Shown: positions 3,778 to 27,797 of the stretch, one piece after another
Layout: every line of letters starts with the position of its first letter
Numbering within the stretch: position 1 is the stretch's first letter
Assembly (NCBI GenBank): GCA_030615745.1
Contig: JAUWYR010000032.1
Coordinates: 1 to 28,635 of the forward strand
Source of the DNA: Candidatus Zixiibacteriota bacterium
GTDB taxonomy: Bacteria > Zixibacteria > MSB-5A5 > SM23-73-2
Length of the DNA: 28,635 bases
Direction: 5' to 3'
Notes under the pieces: model-generated
The model's input: only the letters and a program-made list of their open reading frames with translations
What the model was told of the DNA's origin: nothing
Database searches by the model: none
Made by a program: the position numbers and the translations under genes

Positions 3778-4350
3778 ATGAGCAGAGGTTTGACCTCGAT
3801 TTTTTTCCTTATTTGTTTTCTAATTTTTTCATCGGTTGCTTTTGCTCACACTGATAAGTTCGGCGCCCCGGATACCATAAGGATAACTGTTTTACAAGAT
3901 GACAGTTCGAAACAGGTTCAGGTAAAAGTTTTTCTTTCAAACGATGAGGATATTGTTGCTATTACTGTGCCAATAAAATTCGGTGAGATAGGGAAAGAGC
4001 CTGACCTTTATCTGGATTCTGTAAACTTTCACGGGACAAGGGTTGATTATTTTCAATGGCAAAGTGCCTGGCTTGATTCTTCTGAGAACAGGCTAAAGAT
4101 AGGTTTGATATCTGCTATTTCATCGAATGTTCCAATGTTAAAGCCCGGGGCAGGAGATATAGCCAAGATATTTTTCACTATAAAGGAGAATGCCAAACCA
4201 CAAGAGATCATTTTGGATACCTGCTTAGTAAAACCCTCTATCACTTTACAGATTGTGCATCAGGATAATAAACAGAAATTGTTCAGTTTCACCCCGGTTT
4301 TTGATAATACCAAAGGGAAGATAGTGATTAAGAAGGCAGTAGGCAGGTAA
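3778..4350 (+). CDS. Exported cohesin-like domain protein
   Basis: A 190-residue secreted protein. Residues 1-23 are a Sec signal peptide: a short charged start, a hydrophobic core and a SVAFA cleavage site before HTDKFG. The mature part looks like one beta-rich cohesin-type domain (about residues 28-185). It has alternating strands such as VQVKVFLSNDEDIVAITVPI, a middle LDSVNFHGTRV turn and a LKPGAGDIAKIFFTI strand, the usual layout of single cohesin-like modules in exported proteins of uncultured FCB-type bacteria. The start at 3778 follows an AAAGGAGGAG ribosome site; an upstream in-frame ATG at 3739 has none. It sits 62 nt after thiC with no promoter visible between them. The dockerin-like protein 2 kb downstream makes a binding partnership possible. 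Domain assignment is by eye, so treat it as probable only. Confidence 0.6.
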   Translation: MSRGLTSIFFLICFLIFSSVAFAHTDKFGAPDTIRITVLQDDSSKQVQVKVFLSNDEDIVAITVPIKFGEIGKEPDLYLDSVNFHGTRVDYFQWQSAWLDSSENRLKIGLISAISSNVPMLKPGAGDIAKIFFTIKENAKPQEIILDTCLVKPSITLQIVHQDNKQKLFSFTPVFDNTKGKIVIKKAVGR

Positions 4351-4437
4351 CGGTAAATGGTGAACGGAAAACGGTGAACGGTAAACGGAAAACGGTGAAC
4401 GGAAAACGGTGAACGGAAAAAGGGAAACGGTAGGCAG
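4339..4437. repeat. Heptamer array with 8-bp direct repeats at its ends
   Basis: From 4353 to 4429 the DNA is eleven consecutive 7-nt units without slippage, in two alternating flavours (GTGAACG and GAAAACG, with GTAAACG variants). The array is bracketed by the same 8 bp, GTAGGCAG, at 4339-4346 (inside the last codons of the preceding gene) and at 4430-4437. Confidence 0.85.
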
Positions 4438-9463: not shown

Positions 9464-9471
9464 AATATTAT

Positions 9472-9650
9472 TCCCAACAGATGGAACGGATTGAACGGAG
9501 AATTCCCAACAGATTAAACTGATTAAACGGATTTAACAGCAGATTGAGCAGATTAAACGGATGATTCCCAACGGATTAAACAGATTGGTCAACGGATTAA
9601 ACGGATTGAACGGATGATTCCCAACGGATTAAACAGATAAAACAGATAAG
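9472..9650. repeat. Phased 9-nt array (AACGGATTA type)
   Basis: Degenerate 9-nt units of the type NAACGGATT / NAACAGATT, broken at intervals by the phrase ATTCCC, fill the gap between the terminator and the rqcH end. The same units and the same ATTCCC breaks recur at 21565-21672 after queA, so these two loci share one repeat family. Confidence 0.8.
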
Positions 9651-19974: not shown

Positions 19975-20487
19975 ATGGGTAATATCAGAAGATATTATAT
20001 TCCTGATGCGATCTATTTTATTACTTGTGTTAGTTATCATAGGAAAGAACTGTTTAATAAAGTTGTCAATATCGATTTGTTCTGGAGAATTTTTAAGGAA
20101 GTGAAGAAAATATATTCTTTAAAGATTTATGCTCATGTTTTGCTTTATGAGCATTTCCATTTTTTGATAAATCCTGCAAAAGGTAATATTTCAAAGGTGA
20201 TGCACTCTTTAAAAATCAGTTTCTCCAAAGAATATAAAAAAATACATAATATCGAAGAAAATATCAGGCTTTGGCAATATAGGTTTTGGGATCATATAAT
20301 TAGAGACGAGAATGATTTCAAGACCTACTTCGATTATATTCATTACAATCCGGTAAAACACCGACTGGTAAAGAGACCTGAAGATTTTGGAGAATCAAGC
20401 TATAGATTTTGGGTTAGGAAGGGAGTTTATCAGCTTGGCTGGGGTTATGGTATAGATGAGAAATTGGAAGAGTTAGATTTGGAATAA
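19975..20487 (+). CDS. REP-associated tyrosine transposase (RAYT, TnpA_REP)
   Basis: A 170-residue IS200/IS605-superfamily Y1 single-strand nuclease. The HUH motif is His60-Phe61-His62 (LLYEHFHFLI, in place of the common MPNHVHLL). The catalytic tyrosine is probably Tyr124 in YIHYNPVKH. WDHIIRDENDF and RPEDFGESSYR are typical RAYT C-terminal motifs. RAYTs cut and join single-stranded REP hairpins that carry a GTAG foot; unlike IS200 they are usually single-copy and thought to be domesticated. No ribosome site is seen, only a T-run before the ATG, consistent with low expression. Codon use matches the AT-rich neighbours, so recent acquisition is not obvious. Confidence 0.93.
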   Translation: MGNIRRYYIPDAIYFITCVSYHRKELFNKVVNIDLFWRIFKEVKKIYSLKIYAHVLLYEHFHFLINPAKGNISKVMHSLKISFSKEYKKIHNIEENIRLWQYRFWDHIIRDENDFKTYFDYIHYNPVKHRLVKRPEDFGESSYRFWVRKGVYQLGWGYGIDEKLEELDLE

Positions 20488-20537: not shown

Positions 20538-21575
20538 ATGAAAATTGCTGATTACGATTTTTACCTGCCTCCGGATTTGATAGCACAATACCCTCTGGGA
20601 AAAAGGGATCATTCAAAGCTTTTGGTTTTACACAGAGATTCAGGTGAAATCGAGCATAAGATTTTTTATGAAGTAATAGATTACTTCGAACCAGAAGATG
20701 GACTAGTTATAAACCAGACCAAAATTTTCCCAGCTCGGCTTTTTGGTAATTTAGATGGGACATCTTCGAAGATTGAGATTTTGCTTTTAAGAAAAGTTAA
20801 AGATGATCTCTGGGAGGTTCTGGTTAAGCCTGGGAGGAAAGCAAAAATCGGGAAAAGGATCGTTTTCAATCAAGATAAATTGAGTTGTGAGATTCTGGAT
20901 AATGCCCTTTCTGGTGGGAGATTGGTAAAATTCTTTTATCAGAAGGATTTTTTTGATATAATAGACAAAATAGGGGTGATTCCCTTGCCACCTTATGTCA
21001 AAAGGGAGCCGGAGCCAAAAGATAAGATAACTTACCAGACCGTTTATGCTAAAGAAAGAGGAGCTGTTGCTGGACCAACTGCGGGGTTTCATTTCACAGA
21101 AAAGCTTTTGGAAAAAATTAAAGCTAAAGGTATATTGGTGATACCTCTGGTTTTGCATGTGGGATTGGGAACTTTCAGACCGATTAAAGTTAATGAGCCT
21201 GAAAAGCACAGGATGGAACCAGAATATTTCAAAATTGAAAAAGACTCAACGGAGGTGATAAACAAGATTAAATCAAAAGGAAAAAGAATAATCGCTGTTG
21301 GAACCTCGACTGTGAGAGCCTTGGAGACAGTAGCAAGCGATGATGGCTTTGTAAAACCTCAAAGAGGATGGACTGATAAATTCATCTATCCCCCTTATGA
21401 GTTTAAAGTAGTCGATGCTATAATCACCAATTTTCACCTACCTAAATCGACTTTGCTACTTTTGGTCTCCGCTTTTGCAGGGAGGGATTTAATCTTAAAA
21501 GCATACAAGAATGCTATTAAAAAAGAATATAGATTTTATAGCTATGGAGATGCAATGTTATTGGTCAACGGATAG
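20538..21575 (+). CDS. queA: S-adenosylmethionine:tRNA ribosyltransferase-isomerase QueA
   Basis: QueA transfers and isomerises the ribosyl part of SAM onto 7-aminomethyl-7-deazaguanine in tRNA, giving epoxyqueuosine, the substrate of QueH. 345 residues from ATG 20538: MKIADYDFYLPPDLIAQYP at the N-terminus, then DHSKLLVL, FPARLFG, VAGPTAGFHFTEKLL, LHVGLGTFRPI, EPEYFKIE, AVGTSTVRALE and ITNFHLPKSTLLLLVSAFAG, all family signatures. The frame runs upstream to GTG 20502, but that part lies within the REP and is rejected. No clear ribosome site remains because the REP abuts the gene. The final residues (VNG and stop) are encoded by the first unit of a phased 9-nt array. Confidence 0.96.
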   Translation: MKIADYDFYLPPDLIAQYPLGKRDHSKLLVLHRDSGEIEHKIFYEVIDYFEPEDGLVINQTKIFPARLFGNLDGTSSKIEILLLRKVKDDLWEVLVKPGRKAKIGKRIVFNQDKLSCEILDNALSGGRLVKFFYQKDFFDIIDKIGVIPLPPYVKREPEPKDKITYQTVYAKERGAVAGPTAGFHFTEKLLEKIKAKGILVIPLVLHVGLGTFRPIKVNEPEKHRMEPEYFKIEKDSTEVINKIKSKGKRIIAVGTSTVRALETVASDDGFVKPQRGWTDKFIYPPYEFKVVDAIITNFHLPKSTLLLLVSAFAGRDLILKAYKNAIKKEYRFYSYGDAMLLVNG

Positions 21576-21674
21576 AACAACGGATGGAACGGATTAAACG
21601 GATAAATCCCAACGGATGAAACGGATTGAGCGGATAATTCCCAACAGATTAAACGGATTGAACAGATAAGTCAA
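21564..21674. repeat. Phased 9-nt array after queA (AACGGATTA type)
   Basis: Units such as GAACGGATT, AAACGGATT and CAACAGATT with two AT(T)CCC breaks. The array begins inside the last codons of queA and ends with GTCAA, the same five bases that open it. It is the same family as 9472-9650. Confidence 0.8.
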
Positions 21675-21693: not shown

Positions 21694-22380
21694 ATGAGGA
21701 CGGTTGCGATAATAGTTGCAGCAGGCAAAGGCACCCGGATTGACAATAAGGTTTTAAAGCAGTTTATAGAGATTGCTGGTAAGCCTGTTGTGGTTCATAC
21801 TCTCGAGAAATTCGAATTATGTAGTTCTGTAGATGAGATGCTTCTGGTTGTTCCTGAAGATTACCTGTCTTATAGTATGGAGATGGTGAATAAATTCAAT
21901 TTCAAAAAGATAAATAAGATAATTCCTGGAGGTGAAAAGCGACAGGACTCTGTATATAAAGGTCTTTTGGCTATACCCCATAATACAAAAATTGTGATGA
22001 TTCACGATGGAGTTAGAGCATTGGTAAAAGTGTCCAGGATAACAGAGTCAATTAAGCTGTGCAGAGAATGTAGCGCGGTGATATTGGCAGTTCCGGTTAA
22101 AGAAACTGTCAAAAGAGTTGAGGATTTCTCTGTTATCACAACTTTAAATAGAGAGAGATTATGGAGTGTGCAAACTCCTCAGACTTTCGATTATAAGCTA
22201 ATTTTGGATGCTTACAAAAAAGCTAAAGAAGATGAGTTTGTGGGCACTGATTCCTCCTCATTGGTTGAGAGGTTGGGGATTGAAGTTAAAGTTATAGAAG
22301 GGGATTATGATAATATTAAAATTACCACCAAAGAGGATTTGTTGTTTGCACAGGAGATTTTGAAAGATGAAAGGTTATAG
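21694..22380 (+). CDS. ispD: 2-C-methyl-D-erythritol 4-phosphate cytidylyltransferase
   Basis: IspD activates MEP with CTP in the non-mevalonate isoprenoid pathway. 228 residues. The nucleotide-binding start AIIVAAGKGTRI, then KQFIEIAGKPVVVHTLEKFE, GGEKRQDSVYKGL, MIHDGVRALV, PVKETVKRV, LWSVQTPQTFDYKLI, GTDSSSLVE and VIEGDYDNIKITTKEDL are all canonical. AAAGCGGAGG-type ribosome site upstream of ATG 21694. The last codons and the stop fall inside a heptamer array, so the natural C-terminus may have been altered by a few residues. ispF follows, as in many genomes. Confidence 0.96.
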   Translation: MRTVAIIVAAGKGTRIDNKVLKQFIEIAGKPVVVHTLEKFELCSSVDEMLLVVPEDYLSYSMEMVNKFNFKKINKIIPGGEKRQDSVYKGLLAIPHNTKIVMIHDGVRALVKVSRITESIKLCRECSAVILAVPVKETVKRVEDFSVITTLNRERLWSVQTPQTFDYKLILDAYKKAKEDEFVGTDSSSLVERLGIEVKVIEGDYDNIKITTKEDLLFAQEILKDERL

Positions 22381-22428
22381 GTTATAGGTAATAGGTAATA
22401 GGTAATAGGTATTAGTTGTTAGTTTTTA
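22373..22428. repeat. Heptamer array across the ispD stop codon
   Basis: Eight in-register 7-nt units: GGTTATA twice, GGTAATA three times, GGTATTA, then degenerate GTTGTTA and GTTTTTA. The first unit encodes the last residues and stop of ispD. Confidence 0.85.
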
Positions 22429-26790: not shown

Positions 26791-26837
26791 GTTCAAGGGT
26801 TCAATAGTTCAATGGTTTAAGGGTTTAAGGTTCAAGG
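26791..26837. repeat. Octamer array after cysS (GTTCAANN)
   Basis: Six units: GTTCAAGG, GTTCAATA, GTTCAATG, GTTTAAGG, GTTTAAG (7 nt), GTTCAAGG. Six positions are nearly constant and two vary freely. Confidence 0.85.
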
Positions 26838-27004: not shown

Positions 27005-27076
27005 GCCGATGTAGCTCAGCGGTAGAGCAAGTGATTTGTAATCACTAGGTCAGAGGTTCGAATCCTCTCATCGGCT
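27005..27076 (+). tRNA. tRNA-Thr (anticodon TGT)
   Basis: Full cloverleaf: acceptor GCCGATG/CATCGGC, D arm GCTC/GAGC, anticodon stem AGTGA/TCACT with loop TTTGTAA, T arm AGAGG-TTCGAAT-CCTCT. The 3' CCA is not encoded. It is the first tRNA of a Thr-Tyr-Gly cluster. Confidence 0.97.
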
Positions 27077-27082
27077 AGAAAG

Positions 27083-27115
27083 ACAGTTTATAAGTTTATA
27101 GAGTTTAAGAGTTTA
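27083..27115. repeat. Left phased array of the four-helix-bundle gene
   Basis: Units ACAGTTTA, TAAGTTTA, TAGAGTTTA, AGAGTTTA (consensus NNAGTTTA), ending at the base before the GTG start codon. Inverted relative to the array downstream of the gene. Confidence 0.85.
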
Positions 27116-27487
27116 GTGAAAGGAAAAGAAAAGGAGTTTGGCTTTAAAAAATTAGTGGTGTGGCAGAAATCAGTTGATTTAGCAGAGGAGGTATATAAAG
27201 CTGTCAAGGGTTTTCCGAGAAAGGAATCCCACATCTTGGTGCCACAGCTTTTAAGATGTGCCAACTCAATTCCAGCAAATATTGCAGAAGGGAGTTATCG
27301 AAGATCAAAAAAGGAATTTGTTCAATTTCTTTATGTAGCAAAAGGTTCCCTTGGAGAGACAGTAACTTATTTAGAATTAGCTTTCAGGCAAAGGTATTTA
27401 AGTCAATTAGTTTATGAACGATTAATTACAAAATATAAGGAGGTTTTGACCCTTTTAGTCGGTCTGATCAATTCGTTACGAAAATGA
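27116..27487 (+). CDS. Four-helix-bundle protein, S23 / 23S rRNA intervening-sequence type
   Basis: A 123-residue all-helical protein of the S23/IVP family: FKKLVVWQKSVDLAEEVYKA in helix 1, FPRKESHILVPQLLRCANSI, then the signature PANIAEGSYRRSKKEFVQFL and YVAKGSLGETVTYLELA. Members were named from genes inside 23S rRNA intervening sequences, though most are free-standing; the fold forms pentamers and is related to the Avd accessory protein of diversity-generating retroelements. Its cellular role is unknown. The start is GTG 27116, the first base after the left array, without a ribosome site. The right array begins with the last base of the stop codon. The gene lies between tRNA-Thr and tRNA-Tyr, so it would be carried on the tRNA transcript. 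Confidence 0.9.
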   Translation: MKGKEKEFGFKKLVVWQKSVDLAEEVYKAVKGFPRKESHILVPQLLRCANSIPANIAEGSYRRSKKEFVQFLYVAKGSLGETVTYLELAFRQRYLSQLVYERLITKYKEVLTLLVGLINSLRK

Positions 27488-27542
27488 CTTATAAACTTGT
27501 AGACTTATAAACTTCTAAACTTGTAGACTTATAAACTTATTG
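27487..27542. repeat. Right phased array of the four-helix-bundle gene
   Basis: Seven perfect-register octamers: ACTTATAA, ACTTGTAG, ACTTATAA, ACTTCTAA, ACTTGTAG, ACTTATAA, ACTTATTG. The first base is the final A of the TGA stop codon. The units are the reverse complement type of the left array (AGTTTA against TAAACT). Confidence 0.9.
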
Positions 27543-27550
27543 ATTAACCC

Positions 27551-27632
27551 GGAGGGGTACCCAAGTGGCCAAAGGGAACAGACTGTAAATCTGTCGGCGT
27601 AGCCTTCGGAGGTTCAAATCCTCCCCCCTCCA
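27551..27632 (+). tRNA. tRNA-Tyr (anticodon GTA)
   Basis: Class II tRNA with long variable arm (CGGCGTAGCCTTCGG region). Acceptor GGAGGGG/CCCCTCC, anticodon stem ACAGA/TCTGT with loop CTGTAAA, T arm GGAGG-TTCAAAT-CCTCC. CCA is not encoded. Confidence 0.97.
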
Positions 27633-27639
27633 GGAAAAG

Positions 27640-27717
27640 GCAGTTTAGAAGTTTAAAAGGTTTAGAAGGTTTAAAACATAATTTATAAACTAATAAACTT
27701 ATAAACTCTTAAACTGC
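27640..27717. repeat. Gene-less inverted array (empty counterpart of the four-helix-bundle locus)
   Basis: The left half is GCAGTTTA, GAAGTTTA, AAAGGTTTA, GAAGGTTTA. The right half is TAAACTAA, TAAACTTA, TAAACTCT, TAAACTGC, separated by a short AAAACATAATTTA centre. The ends GCAGTTTA and TAAACTGC are perfect inverted octamers. Same unit type and same left/right orientation as 27083-27115 and 27487-27542. Confidence 0.85.
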
Positions 27718-27723
27718 TTTACT

Positions 27724-27797
27724 GCGGGAGTAACTCAGTTGGCAAGAGTCACAGCCTTCCAAGCTGTTGGTCGCGGGTTCGAGTCCCGTCTCCCGCT
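27724..27797 (+). tRNA. tRNA-Gly (anticodon TCC)
   Basis: Acceptor GCGGGAG/CTCCCGC, D stem ACTC/GAGT, anticodon stem ACAGC/GCTGT with loop CTTCCAA, T arm GCGGG-TTCGAGT-CCCGT. CCA is not encoded. It is the last tRNA before the terminator. Confidence 0.97.

Follow-up and report, generated by a model that had tools for sequence, protein, structure and literature searches.

The window, as the whole stretch of 28,635 nt analysed here is called, contains close to its right end a cluster of tRNA genes in which an S23 gene flanked by arrays of short tandem units lies inserted between tRNA-Thr and tRNA-Tyr and not inside a 23S rRNA gene (Table 1); no rRNA was matched within the window by ARAGORN or Rfam. 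The GTG start codon lies directly 3′ of the left array, and the TGA stop codon (27485–27487) has its last base in common with the right array, both true to the base as the preliminary description of this DNA had claimed. Its further claim that the right array is inverted relative to the left is borne out by the pairing of the arms, 27085–27115 with the reverse complement of 27508–27537. The arm unit is 8 nt long, 7 nt being commoner at other loci. Also present is the gene-less pair of arrays reported between tRNA-Tyr and tRNA-Gly, with the perfect octamers GCAGTTTA at 27640 and TAAACTGC at 27710.

Table 1. The S23 element, its tRNA neighbours and the S23-less arrays of the window.
Feature	Position	Strand	Evidence and remarks
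S23-less single-orientation array, AACGGTA/AACGGAA unit	4349..4430	.	TRF, array scan
S23-less array, AGGTAAT/TAGGTAA unit	22361..22428	.	Array scan; like arms of the resident S23 gene L007
S23-less single-orientation array, GTTCAAGG unit (8 nt)	26791..26830	.	TRF, array scan
tRNA-Thr(TGT)	27005..27076	+	ARAGORN, Rfam; left neighbour of the S23 element
Left arm, phased array of 8-nt units, AGTTTATA type	27085..27115	+	TRF; pairs with right arm
S23 / 23S_rRNA_IVP four-helix-bundle gene, 123 aa, GTG start	27116..27487	+	
Right arm, inverted phased array, ACTTATAA type	27487..27540	+	TRF; complementary to left arm
tRNA-Tyr(GTA)	27551..27632	+	ARAGORN, Rfam
S23-less hairpin, same unit as the S23 arms, terminal octamers GCAGTTTA/TAAACTGC	27640..27717	+	
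tRNA-Gly(TCC)	27724..27797	+	ARAGORN, Rfam

S23 (four-helix-bundle) proteins are common in bacterial genomes; they are short and of unknown function. S23 is not known to carry a nuclease or transposase motif. In profile searches the protein of the window matches PF05635 (4.1e-35) and TIGR02436 (3e-35), and its matches comprise 23S_rRNA_IVP and, weakly, bAvd, with no transposase domain among them; the score against DivGenRetAVD is 27.1 where the cut-off is 80, while the fold is the same as that of Avd. The predicted structure (pLDDT 94) resembles 2GSC and 2RLD and, more weakly, Avd in Foldseek comparisons, with Avd from the reverse-transcriptase complex of a diversity-generating retroelement (DGR; 8UB7) among the matches; 2GSC, the structure of XCC0516 of Xanthomonas campestris and a solved relative, is described as a pentamer. 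Differences fall on the three codon positions as 113/64/323, and the gene is kept by purifying selection. No catalytic partner of S23 was identified.

All eight S23 genes of this genome lie between inverted phased arrays, the unit of which differs from gene to gene. The complementarity score of one flank to the other is 30–38 in seven of these genes and 18 in the eighth (L008), against a maximum of 23 among the 56 cross pairs formed from flanks of different S23 genes; the scores of 270 genes, those of S23 among them, average 19.1 with a 95th percentile of 27.6, and S23 genes hold five of the ten highest. In a 994-kb sample of the genome, in which S23-bearing contigs are over-represented, phased arrays number 130 (99 with a period of 7) and only 1 after block shuffling, and this excess, together with the seven scores above all cross pairs, means that the arrays around S23 genes are not there by chance. 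An inverted partner lies within 2 kb of 21 of the 130 arrays, the other 109 being single, and S23 is the enclosed gene at seven of the places between such partners. The top score of all genes tested, 49, belongs to a non-S23 gene, an AlkD-like DNA-alkylation-repair gene (L116:534-1265; PF08713, 6.9e-41) that lies near a tRNA-Gly gene inside inverted 7-nt arrays.

In related genomes, too, most S23 genes show the same layout of array, gene and array. A further, independent set covers 80 loci of about 20 phyla, two archaeal loci included; its flanks are complementary (score at least 28) at 66 S23 genes but at only 5 of 119 neighbouring genes of the same loci, a difference from which the enrichment of arrays is taken to be specific to S23; 1.7% of 1933 cross pairs reach this score, and a clear arm pair is missing at 14 of the 80 loci. 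The preliminary description had staked its idea of a linked unit on an excess of inverted arrays at S23 flanks over those of other genes, and both the excess and the linkage hold across phyla. The arm period is 7 nt at 90 of 117 loci and 8 nt at 24, and arms are present at all 7 plasmid S23 loci examined. Small GIY-YIG genes of the same clade, used as a control for short mobile-looking genes, have no paired phased flanks and were therefore rejected as a further cargo of the arrays. Small GIY-YIG genes in relatives (L340, L349, L350, L351) have inverted copies of TGTCATTCTGAGCGAAGCGAAGAATCT, not phased, on either side and perhaps form another gene-repeat pair. The open-access PMC literature yielded no earlier description in which phased arrays are linked to S23 genes at large.

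The array unit is common to orthologous S23 loci, and non-syntenic S23 genes often have a common unit too when their proteins are at least about 60% identical. Mean arm similarity is 19.3 at 60–65% protein identity and 31.5 at 65–80%, against 11.8 below 50%, and none of 2000 label permutations reached the observed mean. When all pairs are taken, protein identity and unit similarity show no rank correlation; the coupling is thus confined to close relatives, above some 55–60% identity. Between families f1 and f2 the AGTTTA unit of the tRNA-cluster element became AGTTTG, in both arms together. The unit belongs to the element and is coupled to its S23 protein. Since the unit goes with the S23 subfamily, arms made anew from the target sequence at each insertion are disfavoured, although one empty site discussed below retains two or three units. 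The arms are G-rich inward in 110 of 118 cases, a polarity that may partly reflect the ribosome-binding sequence.

The preliminary description proposed that the S23 element and the neighbouring hairpin are occupied and empty forms of one element, and it called for a search for gene-less arrays and for presence or absence between strains. Both were found, and real pairs of occupied and empty sites exist, but the hairpin at 27640–27717 is not one of them: it lies in a different spacer, and in related genomes nearly every spacer of the tRNA-Thr/Tyr/Gly cluster has a hairpin, for which reasons it was rejected as an empty allele and is a sibling S23-less copy or a derivative. In one related genome (G001) an S23 element lies between two genes, where a congeneric genome (G000) has at the same junction about 37 nt and no S23; this empty junction carries two or three units of the motif of the G001 element. 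Another S23 gene is gone from genomes G006 and G008, in which the arms and a C-terminal remnant remain. At L258 and L259 a hairpin repeat, TAGGGACGTTC/CCCCTACGCG, sits between the arms of a deleted S23 gene, in its place. Comparison of the L002 region with G001 gave no match and is uninformative.

Cleaner cases than these come from named plasmids of the cyanobacterial order Nostocales, in which occupied and empty forms were found at four junctions: one in Calothrix brevissima compared with Tolypothrix, Aulosira and Nostoc carneum; two in a single operon, among plasmids of Nostoc ATCC 53789, C052, C057 and Peltigera cyanobionts; and one at a TraM gene, in Nostoc C052 and N. edaphicum compared with C057. 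On a third plasmid the TraM junction holds two inverted arrays of a related unit with no gene between them (L315), and at a further plasmid junction hairpins of the TCAGGAG unit, that of the neighbouring S23 gene, come and go. The empty forms are ordinary or overlapping stop/start junctions common to several plasmids, so that the occupied state is the insertion. Arrays are absent altogether from most of these empty plasmid sites, true empty alleles mostly lacking both arrays, and no clear target-site duplication was seen, plasmid sites 3a and 3b showing only ambiguous repeats of 3–5 bp (ATG, TTCTA). On the strength of the empty sites between congeneric genomes and at the four plasmid junctions, the gene with its two arrays is shown to behave as an inserted unit, gene and arms having been gained together.

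Arrays also lie away from S23 genes. Among 120 such arrays, 42 match arms of the eight resident S23 genes, where eight arms drawn at random from other phyla give a mean of 7.6 matches and a 95th percentile of 23, and none of 5000 such sets reaches 42. Arrays with the unit of a resident S23 gene are thus dispersed through the genome, an organisation into master gene and short repeats like that of RAYT and REP. Another large family, CAGTAGAC, matches the arms of S23 genes in relatives (L011, L012), the TAGGTGG-type family includes the L007 arm, and the GTTCAAGG-type array of the window (Table 1) belongs to a type seen on the flanks of S23 genes L013, L032, L033 and L035 in relatives. Many arrays of this genome match no resident S23 arm, and many S23-less arrays have a single orientation. 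Two intergenic regions of the window, 9470–9650 and 21566–21669, are filled with single-orientation 9-nt arrays of the AACGGATTA type, a family that recurs elsewhere in the genome and has no match to resident S23 arms. The window also encodes, at 19975–20487, a REP-associated tyrosine transposase (RAYT; NF047646, 1.7e-37).

It could be that the arrays came first, with an unrelated process of slippage and template switching producing inverted intergenic arrays and S23 as a tolerated passenger, or the best survivor, in their loops. Most arrays being without S23 or an inverted partner would fit, as would the AlkD-like gene between inverted arrays and the motif units at the empty G000 site, but such a process would not by itself favour S23 over small GIY-YIG genes, carry the unit with an S23 subfamily to new loci, or leave most plasmid empty sites free of arrays. 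Array density speaks against it as well, at 1 in 400 kb over four S23-less genomes vs 10 per 100 kb here, in a comparison that is small and not phylogenetically controlled. Arrays that precede S23 are thus held to be quite unlikely.

Within the clade, S23 elements occupy five different positions adjoining tRNA or SRP RNA genes, one of them in a second tRNA operon, where the element is adjoined by its own gene-less hairpin with the same unit as S23; only 2 of the 80 loci of the broad set directly adjoin tRNA genes. Most related S23 loci in the clade are syntenic, so movement there is rare. In related tRNA clusters (L058:740-1320, L059, L061), broken or intact GIY-YIG genes and also tRNA-Gly fragments lie between array hairpins. 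S23 is co-oriented with both neighbours at 44 loci of the broad set and opposed to both at 3; in relatives the ratio is 45 to 1, over loci that are not independent. This sense bias is predicted alike by selection on expression and by a transcript-based mechanism.

Insertion in the sense orientation within transcription units is also what would be expected if the element worked at the level of RNA, its arms being kept for a stem that RNase III cuts so that S23 is excised harmlessly from tRNA, rRNA or mRNA precursors, with DNA mobility incidental or ancient. Such processing is known for the intervening sequence (IVS) of Coxiella (PMC4990558), and the S23-less hairpin of the window folds well as RNA (−25.7 kcal/mol, z −6.1, equalled by 0 of 200 shuffles), but the large fold with the S23 gene in its loop reaches only z −1.8. 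Mispaired positions of the arms are G·U in 132 cases and A·C in 147 (p 0.40), and the want of a G·U excess suggests that pairing is maintained in DNA and not in the sense RNA, pointing to a constraint on the arms at the DNA level. The many S23-less arrays with a single orientation can form no local stem, and excision would leave unexplained why the unit follows the protein. Selection for RNA processing is therefore judged unlikely.

Very improbable is a retroelement in which S23 pairs with a reverse transcriptase as Avd does and movement passes through RNA. The fold of S23, shared with Avd including that in 8UB7, and the sense orientation of the insertions would suit such a partnership; yet RVT_1 found no match in this genome or in most relatives that are rich in arrays, 17 of 20 genomes being negative. 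A retroelement with a resident RVT_1 enzyme is thereby largely refuted; a polymerase may still act in trans or have escaped detection.

The feature in the window is best read, with a probability of about 0.6, as a copy belonging to a class of small insertion elements that are widespread, resemble the IVS but lie outside rRNA, and in which S23 is the probable binder of the arrays. Such an element consists of a phased array, an S23 gene and an inverted phased array, some 450–550 bp in all, and would be a relative of the 23S rRNA IVS that has settled mostly in other transcription units, such as tRNA clusters and the stop/start junctions of operons. S23, with its Avd fold, may recognise its cognate array in DNA form, whether as a hairpin or as a cruciform, and might direct to the hairpin those enzymes of host replication or repair that would copy or insert it; the arrays would lengthen by slippage, template switching in DNA would keep the two arms complementary and homogenised, and insertion between genes on the sense strand would allow S23 to be translated from the host transcript. 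Both the recognition of the array by S23 and the mechanism of movement are inferred here.

The generality over phyla and the insertions on named plasmids are the main result, and together gene and arrays look like a widespread and little-recognised mobile element. An experimentally accessible system is offered by the cyanobacterial plasmids, some of which are conjugative and in which the insertions fall precisely between genes. Heptamer arrays recur in intergenic DNA without an explanation, and the link gives both sides a testable role, S23 as a repeat-specific binding protein and the arrays as its sites; it would also turn the IVS, so far an oddity of rRNA, into one case of a general class of insertion element. 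A bolder reading, tentative and somewhat short of even odds, is that S23 proteins form array-specific DNA-binding rings and that the elements are a hitherto unnamed class of mobile element that has no transposase of its own, each subfamily reading its own array code of 7–8 nt and dispersing S23-less arrays, with the rRNA IVS as just the best-known insertion site of the class. If so, arrays dispersed by S23 would account for many heptamer arrays across bacteria.

The nearest known kind to the element of the window is the IVS of 23S rRNA, found with an S23 open reading frame (ORF) in Coxiella, Leptospira and Brucella (PMC4990558). In Coxiella the IVS comprises an S23 ORF and a 28-bp stem at which RNase III cuts; directly 5′ of the S23 start it has the heptamer GACAGAT three times in tandem, with variation between strains (PMC4990558). 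Both kinds have an S23 ORF between complementary, stem-forming ends and both occur as ORF-less hairpins (PMC4990558), but elements of the present type lie at tRNA spacers and operon junctions in place of 23S rRNA, have long phased arrays as arms and are accompanied by dispersed S23-less arrays of the same unit. RAYT-REP systems, or REPtrons (PMC2817692), likewise place one gene between inverted repeats; protein and repeat vary together, and the genome contains many repeats of the same type that enclose no gene. S23 with its arrays, if correctly read, would be a second, unrelated instance of that arrangement; S23 has no Y1/HUH transposase, however, and its repeat is an array of 7–8-nt units where REP is a single palindrome with a GTAG-type head. 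From a classical insertion sequence the element differs in an arm unit that varies by locus and in having neither fixed terminal inverted repeats nor a transposase. With Avd of the DGRs (4DWL, 8UB7) S23 shares the four-helix fold (Foldseek probability 1.00, TM about 0.8), whereas sequence identity is about 17%, the profile match is weak and below the curated cut-off, and no reverse transcriptase, template or variable repeat was found with S23. Published heptamer arrays have the unit GGGAATC in Xanthomonas, GGGGAYT in Nostoc (PMC4692102) or TAACTGA in Beggiatoaceae (PMC4679880); like those described here they are 7-nt, degenerate and intergenic, and for Xanthomonas 70 cases are reported in which two repeats converge (PMC4692102); a search for S23 within these two papers found no mention of it. 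What sets the S23 arrays apart from them is the tie to a gene family and to a mobile unit, and the occurrence of GGGAATC arrays in the species that supplied 2GSC makes the link between S23 and arrays a direct prediction there.
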